In this document: positions 9,040 through 57,480 of the stretch, in pieces
How positions within the stretch are numbered: the stretch's first letter is position 1
How the letters are laid out: each line of letters starts with the position of its first letter
DNA from: Procambarus clarkii
Taxonomy: Eukaryota > Arthropoda > Malacostraca > Decapoda > Cambaridae
Reading direction: 5' to 3'
Length of the DNA: 64,000 nt
NCBI RefSeq assembly: GCF_040958095.1
Contig: NC_091181.1
Span: 31,208,095 to 31,272,094, forward strand
The notes under the pieces: generated by a model
The model's database searches: none
The model's input: only the letters and a program-made list of their open reading frames with translations
What the model was told of the DNA's origin: nothing
Translations under genes and position numbers: made by a program

Positions 9040-9865
9040 TAAGTATTAGTAATATATAAGAAGTGGGAAAGAAAGATGATGTGTGTGACACTTGAGGTTC
9101 CCAACAAACTAGTCATGTACTCGCTGAGGTGTGCTTGCGGGGGTTGAGTTTCAGCTCTTTGGTCCCACCTCTCAACTGTCAATCTACTGGTGTACAGATT
9201 CCTGAGCTTCTGGAGCTCTATCATTTGAAACTGTGTATGGAGTCAGCCTCCACCACATCACTGCCTAATACATTCCACCTGTTAACTAGACACTGAAAAA
9301 GTTCTTTCTAACGTCCCTGTGGCTCATTTGGGTGCTCAGTTTCCACCTGTGTTCCTTTGTTAGTGTACCACCCATGTTAAACAGTTTATCCTTATCTACC
9401 CTGTCAATTCCCCTGAGAATTTTGTAGGTAGTGATCATGTCTCCCCTTACTTTTCTGTCTTCCAATGTCGTAAGGTGCCTTTCCCGCAGCCTTTCTTCGT
9501 AACTCATGCCACTTAGTTCTGGGACCAGTCTAGTGACATACCTCTGAACTTTCTCCAGCTTCGTCTTGTGCTTGACAAGGTACGGGCTCCCTGCAAGGGC
9601 CGCATTCTCCAGGATTGGTCTTACATATGTGGTATACAAGGTTCTGAAAGATTCCTTACACAGGTTTCTGAAGGCTGTTCTGATGTTAGCTAGCCTTGCG
9701 TATGCTGCAGATGTAATTCATTTCATGTGGGCTTCAGGAGACAGGTTTGGTGTGATATCAACTCCTAGATCTTTCTCTCTGTCTGTTTCATGAAGTACTT
9801 CATCTCCCATTCTCTATCCTGTGTCTGGCCTCTTGTTTCCACCGCCTAGTTTCATTACTTTTCAT
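9040..9865 (-). pseudogene. Non-LTR retrotransposon relic: 3' part of reverse transcriptase ORF
   Basis: On the minus strand, from about 9800 to 9290, the frame reads DREKDLGVDITPNLSPEAHM, then a broken stretch, YTTYVRPILENAA, VKHKTKLEKVQRYVTRLVPE, LTTLEDRKVRGDMITTYKIL and HRWKLSTQMSHRDVRKNFFS. This is the post-RT region of a jockey/CR1-type LINE ORF2. A tail with LRNLYTSRLTVERWDQRAE follows and ends near 9120. The copy is 5' truncated and has stops and frame shifts. A second copy of the same 3' end is at 49585-49900. Confidence 0.85.
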
Positions 9866-9869
9866 TACT

Positions 9870-14774: not shown

Positions 14775-16411
14775 TCACGACTGATTGCCACTTAGATGAC
14801 TTAGAAGTGTGGCACATAACTGCTTTGCATCCGTTTCCTCAGGATATCTAGCTAAGACAGCACGCACTTGAGCTACAGGAAACAATTGTGATAAATTATA
14901 AAATATACGTAAACGTGCATCCTCATGACTGGAGGCAGCAGTTGGAAGGGAACTGGAAAACCCAGCTGAGAGAGGAGAGGATCCACACACTGGGGCACCC
15001 TGAGACTGGTGACCCACTCCTGACTGTGATAGCTGTTGGGGAGACATTGGGCGCGACCCAACAGGCCCAGGGTTACAAGACAAAATATAACTACATATTT
15101 TCTGGGGGTCAGTTTCTTCTGGATACATTGCCAAGACAGCTCTAACCTGAGCCTCTGGGAATAGGTTTGATAGATGATAAAAAACATGTAAACGAGCATC
15201 CTCATGACTTGTAGGATTAGAGAAATTTGAAGAGAATCCCACTGGTTGCTGTCGTGGAGACACACTTGGCGAGTGATGATGAACCGGACCTTGTTGGGGA
15301 GACATTGGCCTAGAACCAATTGGTCCTGGTGAAGGAGCACTTGGGCCAGGGCTTACACTATGCGGAGGTCCCAAAGTTTGGAATTGTGGTAAACGTCCCA
15401 ACTGCTCTTCAAAAACATCTGGGAAAAAATGTGAGTCACTACTACTGTACACATTTAGCCTTGTATCAGATGTGGAATTTAAGCGTGTAATTTGTGGTGG
15501 TCCAGGAGATGCCTGTTGCTGATGGCCACCCCAGATTGGGTCTGGAGCAGATGCAAAGCGTGTTACATGAGGATGGGAATATGTGGGATATAAATGAGGT
15601 GGCAAAGAAACCATATGCTTGGCACTCTCTTGTGATGAATGACGGGCAAGAGGTGGGTGCATCCCTGCTGGTAGCTGCTCACGGCTTCCATATGGTGACG
15701 AATATCCAGGAGAGACACGTCCTGTCATGCCACTTGCCACTTGAGAGAAGGCTAATGCTTCATTATCACGATTCATGGTTCTACTTGGAGAACCCTGTCC
15801 TGTTGTCTGCTGTTGTTGCTGACCAGAACCGGCAAGGGGAAAGTGCTCTGGAGCTGGTTCTCTAAAGCCAACTATCTTGTACAGGCGAGAATCATATGCT
15901 GGATTAAGTGTAAGTTGACGCTGCAGCTTCCTGTGAGGATTATCAGATGCAGCAGGATCTGGATCAGACATTTGTTTTGTGAGAGAGAGATGAGAGCCAT
16001 ACATTTGGGAAGGGCTTTGAGGAGGTGCCCCTTGTTGGCTAGTCATAGCCCTCATTGGTAGTTCATTTCCTTGATCCTTCCACCAAGTCGATGCTCCATA
16101 GCTAGGTTGAGTGCTCTGGGAGGAATATATATGATAGAGAGAGGAATCACTCTTAAACATAGTTGAAGAACGCAGTGGATCAAGTGGGCGTGTATCCATG
16201 TGCGGGGGCATGAGGTGGTGGTGCGAGTGTGAAGAAGCAGATGACGTGCTGGGTCCCAGATCATGTGTTGGAGTCTCTTGAGTAAGAGCAGAAGGCAGAG
16301 TGAGGGACACTGATGGCACTATAGACTGTGTACGTGCTAGTGGTTTTTTGGTTACATCAGATTCTGCAATACCCACTGGAAGTGATAAACTCTTCAAACG
16401 GAGACCTTCGC
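14775..16411 (-). CDS. ZC3H12: Regnase/ZC3H12-family, terminal exon with low-complexity linker and duplicated C-terminal domain
   Basis: After the acceptor ttcttttcag|gcgaag, this 1637-nt exon encodes residues 597-1141 and a TGA at 14777-14775. It is mostly a Ser/Pro/Gln/His-rich linker, probably disordered. Within it are the repeated family-like segments RKLQRQLTLNPAYDSRLYKI and TRFASAPDPIWG. It ends with two copies of the three-helix C-terminal domain, each starting SHEDARL: residues 998-1041 (15209-15078) and 1091-1134 (14930-14799). Copies share LFPxAQVRAVLAxYPEETD. Each is preceded by an SRPMSPQQ linker, so the duplication is larger than the domain. Vertebrate Regnases carry one such domain. 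With the two upstream exons the frame totals 3426 nt, exactly 1142 codons. Confidence 0.94.
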
Positions 16412-18575: not shown

Positions 18576-19192
18576 CTGGTGATGAGTCTCTGCTTTTGGC
18601 CTTATTTTGGTAGTGCTTCTGTACTTGTTCTTGCAGTCGTTCTGTCACAGACTTCAATGGTGCAGTACCTCGCTCTGGGTGCATATATTTGCATTTGTTA
18701 CCATAAGTACATTTACGACCATATGGACATAGTGCTTGTTTGTCTCGAGTACTTCGTCGTAGGAAGACATCTAGTGTGGGTCCACTTCTTCCTAGAGGGT
18801 CATCAGGAGGTACGAAGCGACCATTGACCCAAGAGTACATGAGTAAACTCTCTTCTATTACCCGTCGGAAGGCCTGGGATTCTGCAGCCAGATCACGATA
18901 GTTGTCGTTGCTGACGACAACACCGCCGGAAGTCACAGCCTCTTTGAGGATGTAGCGGTCATCGTAGGAGACAATGCGTTTGCCGCCACATACCCTGGAA
19001 GGCGTAAACACCAAGATACGTTCTCGTTCGAGTTCCAGTAGAACATCTTGATCCACGATGGGTGTGTCCCACCGAGGCGCCTCCTTCCTCCAGGAGGGCA
19101 CGAAGACTGTGATCTCGGTGTGTCCGCGGGCACGGAACCAGTCCACACACACGCGCAGGCCGCTGCACGAGAACGTCGTCTTGTTTCCATGA
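18576..19192 (-). CDS. ZC3H12: Regnase/ZC3H12-family, PIN nuclease core and CCCH zinc-finger exon
   Basis: This 617-nt exon gives residues 391-597. It completes the family signature across the splice as [14 protein letters not shown]. The PIN/NYN fold follows, with the catalytic pair in SYDDRY (Asp468, Asp469) and the fourth acid in SNDNYRD (Asp487). All four metal-binding acids of the family are present, so the enzyme is predicted to be active. The [19 protein letters not shown] segment is typical of the family. The zinc finger is [17 protein letters not shown] (C-x5-C-x5-C-x3-H, residues 546-562). The acceptor is ttctttcag|tcatgg and the donor ccag|gtaata, one base into a Gly codon. Spacing, phases and motif order all match the ZC3H12 family. 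Confidence 0.96.
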
Positions 19193-31209: not shown

Positions 31210-31975
31210 CAGTGCTGGAGTGCTGCCATTGGTTCAGGGTACCGGTGCTGGAGTGCTGCCATTGGTTCAGGGTACCGGTGCTGGAGTGCTGCCATTGGTT
31301 CAGGGTACCGGTGCTGGAGTGCTGCCATTGGTTCAGGGTACCGGTGCTGGAGTGCTGCCATTGGTTCAGGGTACCGGTGCGGGAGTGCTGCCATTGGTTC
31401 AGGGTACCGGTGCTGGAGTGCTGCCATTGGTTCAGGGTACCGGTGCTGGAGTGCTGCCATTGGTTCAGGGTACCGGTGCTGGAGTGCTGCCATTGGTTCA
31501 GGGTACCGGTGCTGGAGTGCTGCCATTGGTTCAGGGTACCGGTGCTGGAGTGCTGCCATTGGTTCACGGTACCGGTGCTGGAGTGCTGCCATTGGTTCAG
31601 GGTACCGGTGCTGGAGTGCTGCCATTGGTTCACGGTACCGGTGCTGGAGTGCTGCCATTGGTTCAGGGTACCGGTGCTGGAGTGCTGCCATTGGTTCACG
31701 GTACCGGTGCTGGAGTGCTGCCATTGGTTCAGGGTACCGGTGCTGGAGTGCTGCCATTGGTTCAGGGTACCGGTGCTGGAGTGCTGCCATTGGTTCAGGG
31801 TACCGGTGATGGAGTGCTGCCATTGGTTCAGGGTACCGGTGATGGAGTGCTGCCATTGGTTCAGGGTACCGGTGATGGAGTGCTGCCATTGGTTCAGGGT
31901 ACCGGTGATGGAGTGCTGCCATTGGTTCAGGGTACCGGTGATGGAGTGCTGCCATTGGTTCAGGGTACCGGTGAT
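31210..31975. repeat. 33-bp minisatellite, about 23 copies
   Basis: The unit runs ggtgctggagtgctgccatt then ggttcagggtacc, each with a KpnI-type ggtacc. Because 33 is a multiple of three and the unit has no stop in several frames, frames of 215-372 codons open over it on both strands. Variants are ordered: ggttcacgg occurs in every second unit between about 31565 and 31700 (a 66-bp period), and the last five units have gat for gct. The array lies inside the large Regnase intron. Confidence 0.97.
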
Positions 31976-34483: not shown

Positions 34484-35655
34484 CTCATGGCCACGTTGCT
34501 GCCGTCGATAATAATGGGTTTGAGAGATGGCTGCTGATGCTGTTGCTGAAGGTGGTGATGATGATGCTCCACGTCATCCTTTGTGTCCGTCACGTCGTCA
34601 GCAGAGTCCCCTTCTCCGTCGGCTCGGGGCACGCTGGAAACTAAACGGATGAGCTCCGCTAGAAGCTCGTCTTTATCTGGCGTTCCTCCCAATTTCACGA
34701 GGGCCATCTGCACCAGCGCCTCCGAATATCCCAGTTTGACGCCGAACTCTACCTGGGAGGCGTAGCTGGGACGCAGCACCACACACGACACGCCTCCCGT
34801 CGTCGTTGACGACGTCTGCTCCTCCGACGTACTGCACACTGGTGCTAGAGGCTCGTGCACGCTGCTGGTGGTGGTCACCGTCGTCACCGTCCCAGCCTTG
34901 GCAGCGGTACTGGGCGAGGGGAGAGGTTGTGCTATCGTCATTATGGTTGTGGCGGGGGCAGGCGGCGTCACGGACACTGACGGTGCCGAAGATACCCGCA
35001 CCGCGGGAGACGCTGCTCTCACGGCGTCCTGGATTGTCTTGCCTTCACAACCTGAAGATGGCGTGCTTGTCGAAGTTGTAACTGCTGTGGTTGTCGTGAC
35101 AGAAACTGTAGTTGCTGTGGTGACTGGGGCTGTAGTTGCTGTGGGTGTGGTGACTGCGGTTGTCGTGACTGCGGCTGTAGTTGACGTGACTGTAATGACT
35201 GCGGCTGTAGTGGAGGAGGCTGCTGTAAGACTGGTAGCGAGGATGTGAGTGGTAGGGACGATGGTAGTAGTACTGGTGGTCGCAGTGGAGGTGGAGGTGG
35301 TGGGCGGACTATGCATGGTGACGTACTCTGCGTACTCGGCACACAGCGTGTCGGAGACGGTTCGGCACACATCCTCGTGCTCGTCATCGTCAGGGCGCTC
35401 GCAGGGCTCGAAGTCACTGTCATAGCTGCTGTCCTCGTTCTCCAGCTTCCGTCGGCCGCGGCCCACCACCCCCGACACGTCTTCGCTACCAATGCTGGAG
35501 TCATGGTGATGCTTGTCGGTGGGCGGGTGGGCGGTGTGGGGTGGCGAGGGCGGCGGTGAAGGGGCGGCCACTGGTGGTGCGTCCACCCCGGACATAGCGG
35601 TCAGCAGGCACCCGCCCACTACCCCGCGCTCACCCACCACCACGGGCACCACATC
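34484..35655 (-). CDS. ZC3H12: Regnase/ZC3H12-family endoribonuclease, first exon seen (UBA-like N-terminal domain and start of PIN domain)
   Basis: Regnase (ZC3H12) proteins are cytoplasmic endoribonucleases that cut stem-loops in mRNAs, notably inflammatory transcripts in vertebrates. This exon (1172 nt, residues 1-391 of the frame) has an acidic SSYDSDFEP stretch. A Thr/Ser/Val-rich tract of about 80 residues follows, then the conserved N-terminal domain VEFGVKLGYSEALVQMALVK at about residues 302-341. A His/Gln run comes next, and the exon ends in IIIDGSNVAM, where Asp384 is the first PIN catalytic acid. The acceptor is tgttgtgtttcag|gat and the donor atgag|gtaaga, two bases into a Ser codon. 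No ATG opens the exon: the earliest in-frame ATG is Met21 (35595-35593). Translation therefore starts there or in an upstream exon. The family assignment is firm. The paralogue is not resolved, and arthropods usually have one. Confidence 0.93.
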
Positions 35656-52346: not shown

Positions 52347-52355
52347 TTTATGAGA

Positions 52356-53080
<725 letters not shown>

Positions 53081-53975: not shown

Positions 53976-54475
53976 NNNNNNNNNNNNNNNNNNNNNNNNN
54001 NNNNNNNNNNNNNNNNNNNNNNNNNNNNNNNNNNNNNNNNNNNNNNNNNNNNNNNNNNNNNNNNNNNNNNNNNNNNNNNNNNNNNNNNNNNNNNNNNNNN
54101 NNNNNNNNNNNNNNNNNNNNNNNNNNNNNNNNNNNNNNNNNNNNNNNNNNNNNNNNNNNNNNNNNNNNNNNNNNNNNNNNNNNNNNNNNNNNNNNNNNNN
54201 NNNNNNNNNNNNNNNNNNNNNNNNNNNNNNNNNNNNNNNNNNNNNNNNNNNNNNNNNNNNNNNNNNNNNNNNNNNNNNNNNNNNNNNNNNNNNNNNNNNN
54301 NNNNNNNNNNNNNNNNNNNNNNNNNNNNNNNNNNNNNNNNNNNNNNNNNNNNNNNNNNNNNNNNNNNNNNNNNNNNNNNNNNNNNNNNNNNNNNNNNNNN
54401 NNNNNNNNNNNNNNNNNNNNNNNNNNNNNNNNNNNNNNNNNNNNNNNNNNNNNNNNNNNNNNNNNNNNNNNNNNN
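53976..54475. other. Assembly gap of exactly 500 N
   Basis: A run of 500 N, a round number typical of a scaffold gap of unknown true size. Frames crossing it are meaningless, and order across it rests on the scaffolding. Confidence 0.99.
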
Positions 54476-55847: not shown

Positions 55848-56245
55848 TATAGTCCAGTCACTGGTCCTATGGTTCCAGTCACTGGTTCCATGGTTCCAGT
55901 CACTGGTTCCATGGTTCCAGTCACTGGTTCCATGGTTCCAGTCACTGGTTCCATGGTTCCAGTCACTGGTTCCATGGTTCCAGTCACTGGTTCCATGGTT
56001 CCAGTCACTGGTTCCATGGTTCCAGTCACTGGTTCCATGGTTCCAGTCACTGGTTCCATGGTTCCAGTCACTGGTCCTATGGTTCCAGTCACTGGTTCCA
56101 TGGTTCCAGTCACTGGTCCTATGGTTCCAGTCACTGGTCCTATGGTTCCAGTCACTGGTCCTATGGTTCCAGTCACTGGTCCTATGGTTCCAGTCACAGG
56201 TCTTCCTGTTCCATACACTAATCGAGTAGTTCCAGTCACCTCCAG
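55848..56245. repeat. 21-bp minisatellite, about 18 copies
   Basis: Units read ggttccagtcactggttccat or the ggtcctat variant. Since 21 is a multiple of three, the plus strand reads as repeated VPVTGSM/VPVTGPM and the minus strand as repeated DWNHGTS, both uninterrupted. A repeat artefact is the default reading. Confidence 0.95.
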
Positions 56246-57159: not shown

Positions 57160-57480
57160 CTCTACCTCGGTGAGGCGTCTCTTGTCTGTGTGGTAGAGTC
57201 TCTTGTCTGTGAGGTAGAGTCTGTTGTCTGTGAGGTAAGAGTCCTGTTGTCTGTGGGGTAGAAGTCTCTTGTCTGTGAGGTAGAGTCTGTTGTCTGTGAG
57301 GTAGTCTCTCTTGTCTGTGAGGTAGAGTCTCTTGTCTGTGAGGTAGTCTCTCTTGTCTTGTGAGGTAGTCTCTCTTGTCTGTGAGGTAGTCTCTCTTGTC
57401 TGTGAGGTAGAGTCTCTTGTCTGTGAGGTAGTCTCTCTTGTCTTGTGAGGTAGAGTCTCTTGTCTGTGAGGTAGACAAGA
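57160..57480. repeat. 21-bp minisatellite, about 15 copies
   Basis: Units read tctcttgtctgtgaggtaga, with agtctc, ttgtctt and gagtctgttg variants. Minus frames such as repeated DKRDYLT are artefacts. From 57490 to 58950 the DNA is C-rich with CCT/CCA low complexity and an 18-bp triplicate at about 58530-58590; no gene was seen. Confidence 0.9.

Follow-up and report, generated by a model that had tools for sequence, protein, structure and literature searches.

What might a nuclease of messenger RNA decay gain from carrying its C-terminal domain (CTD) twice? The question is raised by a gene of the Regnase (ZC3H12) family in the decapod Procambarus clarkii, which lies on the minus strand of the 64,000-nucleotide stretch of DNA analysed here (the window; positions 31,208,095 to 31,272,094 of contig NC_091181.1, handled below as G000:C32:31208095-31272094, within an assembly of 4.03 Gb and 2,308 contigs). 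The last coding exon of this gene encodes two CTDs, which have diverged from one another under constraint. The preferred reading, to which a probability of roughly 0.55 is given, is that an old, doubled, CUE-like CTD acts as a bivalent arm with which the nuclease docks on one kind of partner. Papers are cited by PMC number.

Gene Architecture and Family Assignment

Three exons (Table 1), joined at matching splice sites, give an open reading frame (ORF) that starts at a plausible initiator methionine (MSGVDAPP) and runs for 1,121 residues. The ORF carries the marks of the Regnase/ZC3H12 family, namely a UBA-like N-terminal domain, a PIN/NYN RNase domain of the Zc3h12a type, a CCCH zinc finger and the C-terminal domain PF18561 (Regnase_1_C). 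The first two are recognized by Pfam, and the exon B portion aligns with the PIN domain of mouse Regnase-1 (5h9v). The finger, which follows the PIN domain, matches the mouse Regnase-1 zinc finger (2n5k) and scores 20.4 bits with PF00642, just under the cut-off of 20.5. The PIN motifs DGSNVAM, YDDR and VSND lie at ORF residues 364, 447 and 464, and hold the aspartates that are catalytic in Zc3h12a-type RNases. The order of N-terminal domain (UBA_6), PIN RNase, CCCH finger and CTD is that of mouse Regnase-1 (ZC3H12A), but the mouse protein has a single CTD (2N5L; PMC4772114) and the protein encoded here has two. Judged by its sequence, the gene is a Regnase (ZC3H12-type) endoribonuclease with a variant architecture. 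The ORF also differs from mouse Regnase-1 in containing no DSG motif, the mark of the beta-TrCP site. Ahead of the UBA-like domain, within 34484-35595, runs a long stretch of low complexity that is rich in Thr, Ser and Val.

Table 1. Coordinates of the Regnase gene and its repeat units in the window.
Feature	Position	Strand	Content	Evidence
Exon A	34484..35595	-	Putative start MSGVDAPP, UBA_6 N-terminal domain, first PIN RNase residues (IIIDGSNVAM)	PF18039 50.9 bits (Pfam cut-off 23.5); splice donor AG/GTAAGA and frame
Exon B	18576..19192	-	Remaining PIN RNase (YDDR, VSND) and CCCH zinc finger	PF11977 174.8 bits (Pfam); PDB 5h9v E 3e-79; 2n5k E 3.4e-7; splice sites
Exon C, last coding exon	14775..16411	-	Pro/Ser-rich region, two repeat units, stop	Open frame and splice acceptor
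Repeat unit 1 (86 aa)	15069..15326	-	Linker GPIGSRPMSPQQ and CTD copy 1	Unit-to-unit alignment; PF18561 31.0 bits
CTD copy 1	15069..15209	-	SHEDARLHVF...SYILSCNP	PF18561 31.0 bits for the unit; predicted helices
Repeat unit 2 (97 aa)	14778..15068	-	Linker GPVGSRPMSPQQ and CTD copy 2	Unit-to-unit alignment; PF18561 36.4 bits
CTD copy 2	14778..14930	-	SHEDARLRIF...TLLSHLSGNQS	PF18561 36.4 bits for the unit; model pLDDT 89.3
Stop codon	14775-14777	-		

Two C-Terminal Domains in the Last Coding Exon

The initial annotation had described two copies of the C-terminal domain in the last exon, each with an SRPMSPQQ linker and a core of LFPxAQVRAVLAxYPEETD, and both the description and the placement of the copies in the window are borne out. 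Its residue numbers, 998 and 1091, become 978 and 1071 when counting starts at MSGVDAPP, the 20 residues of difference matching the in-frame stretch from a splice acceptor to that methionine. Pfam finds two stretches of PF18561, and the single units separately pass the cut-off of 25.7 bits. Aligned with each other, the units score 213, against a mean of -7.5 for shuffled sequences (standard deviation 9.7, maximum 32.5, n=1000); they are identical at 50 of 86 aligned residues and, in the ungapped core, at 31 of 44. Besides the domain core, both units have a GFSS segment and the linker motif GP[IV]GSRPMSPQQ, and both copies keep a Phe-Pro pair and an [LI]Cxx[LI]L end. No third copy emerged when the window was scanned with a profile in all six frames (next-best match 8.0 bits, E 0.33). 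The accompanying statement that vertebrate members carry one copy agrees with what is described for mouse Regnase-1, and no vertebrate member is known to carry two. A profile built from the two copies matches the mouse CTD (2n5l) with an E of 2.9e-5, and the last-exon protein alone does so with an E of 0.035. With PF23054, the family of the C-terminal CUE/CoCUN domain of N4BP1 (9A1L, 8T48), the last-exon protein reaches 29.4 bits when both copies are summed (cut-off 27), but the single units, at 17.6 and 18.6 bits, each fall below the cut-off.

Two further possibilities were considered and rejected. Copy 2 is not expected to be spliced out, as both copies share one exon and a search for GTRAG donors in 14775-15330 found none. 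Docking of 14-3-3 through the linker, considered because two pSxP sites are reported in mouse Regnase-1 (PMC8553338), is not supported, the linker reading RPMSP and the sole RxxSxP matches in the ORF lying at 200 and 861.

Age and Constraint of the Duplication

With 13 differences among 44 core residues and 14 among the 23 four-fold sites of identical residues, the two copies are not recent. The same codon is used at 21 of the 50 identical residues. By the NG86 method the synonymous divergence (dS) is undefined (saturated), and LWL85 over 47 core codons gives a dS of 1.03 and a nonsynonymous divergence (dN) of 0.30. When nucleotide identity was fixed at the observed 89 of 132, neutral simulation kept on average 17.9 of 44 residues and at most 26 in 2000 runs, against the 31 observed, and the 11 of 12 residues kept in the linker motif were attained in 1 of 2000 runs, the model being a plain one of equal rates and the motif boundaries having been picked after the alignment was seen. 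Sequence comparison of this kind indicates that the tandem duplication, which took place within the exon and doubled a unit of ~90 residues, is old and constrained, as the initial annotation had proposed.

Each copy is identical to the mouse CTD at 15 of 39 sites, and the copies agree with one another against mouse at 15 of 39. Because they are equally far from mouse and so often agree against it, the comparison suggests that the duplication occurred after the split from vertebrates, or that the copies have homogenized each other. Identity is unevenly distributed along the domain: helices 1-2 and the loop between them are identical at 28 of 34 residues, 14 of which are shared against mouse, and helix 3 at 3 of 10 (p 0.0034 for this contrast, which was drawn post hoc).

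A Second Assembled Block and the Number of Loci

A 701-base segment that spans the double domain recurs, identical, 91.7 kb further along the same contig. It belongs to a larger match in which, compared in pieces of at least 300 bases, window positions 1-53975 align piecewise to G000:C32:31299806-31353683, mostly at 97-99.4% identity, with lower values for some of the pieces in which tandem repeats abound. Alignment ends exactly at a gap of 500 Ns (53976-54475); in the upstream direction, the second block may extend beyond window position 1. Between the two copies of the gene, 6 of 3,366 coding bases differ: five of the changes are silent, one exchanges Gly and Ser at residue 771, and none falls in either CTD. 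The two blocks of ~54 kb are probably two haplotypes set side by side, the alternative being a very recent segmental duplication. From shifts in the alignment offset, the length of an array of 33-base units seems to vary between them.

That the doubled domain is itself an assembly artefact, or a recent duplication without function, has next to no probability. The presence of a near-identical block twice means that block-level duplication artefacts may exist here, but a local assembly error is excluded, as the initial annotation had it, because the second assembled block has the same double domain, and the differences between the copies in the core and at four-fold sites also speak against such an origin.

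Searches of the assembly were run exon by exon and only the best candidates were scored, so that a diverged or finely split paralogue could escape them. Within that scope no other PF11977 match was found at E <= 0.001 (both of the two matches lie in the two blocks; 3 candidates were scored) and no other PF18561 match above the cut-off (four of six pass, all in the two blocks). On this evidence the genome appears to contain one Regnase locus with a doubled CTD and not several paralogues. The two PF18561 matches below threshold, at 20.5 and 18.7 bits (E 2.1 and 7.0), were taken as chance in view of an E of about 2 and of the lack of any PF11977 match outside C32. The better of them, at 1501-1584 of L022 (G000:C55), is a frame of 43 codons that reads LFPPRLARVLMNKLPPQI and has some likeness to the mouse CTD; a profile that includes mouse gives it 13.8-14.1 bits, and the two-copy profile gives no score. 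It is likely a chance match, and possibly a remnant. Neither PF11977 nor PF18561 was found in 14 control genomes. In a viral collection the last exon gave no pattern match, and the CTD profile and the PIN exon gave 342 and 1; in a genome collection the latter two gave 109 and 15. None was confirmed, and both collections consist of viruses and prokaryotes and have no bearing on animals.

Predicted Structure and Fold Matches

Both copies are predicted to be three-helix bundles, in keeping with the initial description, and the models point to two separate bundles on a flexible linker. In the model of copy 2 (predicted local distance difference test, pLDDT, as in Table 1), the Phe-Pro pair, F17-P18, sits between helix 2-14 and helix 19-28. 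The top-ranked solved folds for this copy are the KHNYN CTD (CUBAN) with ZAP (9BGL) and the N4BP1 CUE domain with ubiquitin, including linear di-ubiquitin, and several of the top matches are protein-binding domains. UBAP1, whose fold was found to be closest to that of the mouse CTD (PMC4772114), is also among the matches. The mouse CTD itself, 2n5l, was absent from the 21 Foldseek matches and from the VIA rows for copy 2, and the link to it therefore rests on sequence. For the model of the whole tandem, fold comparison gave 5 matches with a best E of 4.2, the KHNYN CTD being first.

Proposed Function of the Paired Domains

The function of the Regnase CTD is called elusive in the structural paper on the mouse protein (PMC4772114), and the domain is described in a review as poorly conserved in invertebrates (PMC12982082). 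By analogy with relatives, in which the domain at this position recruits, the doubled CTD may be a recruitment device. The CTD of KHNYN binds ZAP directly (PMC11685948), and the N4BP1 domain binds ubiquitin via Phe-Pro and D893, with a D893A mutation abolishing binding (PMC11032371). KHNYN differs from the protein described here in having a single copy, a KH domain in place of the CCCH finger (PMC7226360), and FW where the copies have FP (PMC6681339). The old in-exon duplication would have furnished Regnase with two C-terminal CUE-like domains, which together would form a bivalent arm, so that the nuclease could dock more avidly than with one CTD on a partner that is multimeric or repeated. 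The two copies probably share a kind of partner, given that helices 1-2 and the Phe-Pro loop are nearly the same in both and helix 3 has drifted; it is this contrast that favours a docking arm for one partner kind. Candidate partners would be a ubiquitin-type mark or, on the model of the KHNYN CTD and ZAP, an RNA-binding protein. The initial suggestion that a doubled domain could raise avidity or admit two partners is plausible.

Ubiquitin binding ranks second among the explanations and is considered unlikely. The two CUE-like domains would hold two ubiquitins in cis, as the N4BP1 dimer does, or, by analogy with yeast Cue2, would bring the nuclease to ubiquitinated ribosomes. N4BP1 has one CUE domain and dimerizes for avidity, whereas here two CTDs lie on one chain; its RNase dimer pairs two CUE domains, which gives higher affinity and a choice of linkage, and M1-linked di-ubiquitin is bound at 0.43 µM by N4BP1 613-893 (surface plasmon resonance) and at 28 µM by the lone CUE domain (isothermal titration calorimetry; PMC11032371). 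A reader of this kind would fit the N4BP1-ubiquitin fold matches, the Phe-Pro pair of both copies, which the copy 2 model places in the loop between helices 1 and 2, and the [LI]Cxx[LI]L end, which resembles the LSxx(L/V)L motif of N4BP1 and KHNYN (PMC6681339). Cue2, a no-go-decay nuclease, is likewise an RNA endonuclease with two CUE-type domains (PMC6598757), but it has an SMR nuclease and its CUE domains are N-terminal, so that the likeness is one of analogy only. Several points weigh against ubiquitin. The CUE domains of MCPIP1-4 are divergent and only that of KHNYN binds ubiquitin, according to PMC11032371, which cites another study for this, and the case is made in PMC6681339 that the domain of N4BP1 is no true CUE domain. 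Moreover, the PF23054 alignment reaches position 47 of 47 in copy 1 and position 46 in copy 2, and in each copy the residue aligned at position 47, or the one that follows the alignment, is Ser; if position 47 corresponds to N4BP1 D893, as is inferred here, both copies would have Ser at the site where mutation to Ala abolishes binding in N4BP1.

Less likely again, and third in rank, is subfunctionalization, with a different partner for each copy. It would account for the divergence of helix 3, the most altered part of the domain and one that in CUE domains contributes to the ligand surface (PMC6681339), but the near identity of helices 1-2 and the loop, with the 14 residues shared there against mouse (15 over the whole core), runs counter to it, as does the retention of the linker motif in both units. 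A role of the pair in RNA (pre-miRNA) handling, self-association or localization, in place of partner docking, comes fourth and is improbable: the related domain of KHNYN contains a signal for nuclear export and influences turnover (PMC9888277), but the protein-binding domains among the top fold matches argue in the other direction.

Implications

Among the titles and opening lines of abstracts listed in literature searches on arthropod and crustacean Regnase architecture, no description of a doubled Regnase CTD was found. The one Regnase locus found has two constrained CTDs, which shows the CTD to be under selection in this genome too, and the doubled form could be a natural avidity reagent with which to find the CTD partner. 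Should double CTDs be common in crustaceans or arthropods, they would represent ordinary family anatomy. A bolder proposal, rated between the third and fourth of the explanations above and thus doubtful, is that doubling of the CTD made the Regnase of this lineage a cis-bivalent reader of some polymeric mark, be it a chain of ubiquitin or NEDD8 or ubiquitinated ribosomes. If true, Regnase would gain avidity by another route than N4BP1, which relies on a dimer, and would parallel Cue2 with its tandem CUE domains; a CCCH-PIN nuclease of messenger RNA decay would thereby be tied directly to ubiquitin signalling.

Other Features of the Window

A repeat element at 9130-9869 also occurs in L003 and L016 at 88% identity, and an open frame on the minus strand at 9286-9717 has no Pfam match and by eye looks like the tail of a reverse transcriptase. 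Long tandem repeats occupy 31212-31973 (33-base units), 52352-53076 (2-base units), and 55853-56201 and 57177-57475 (21-base units in each).
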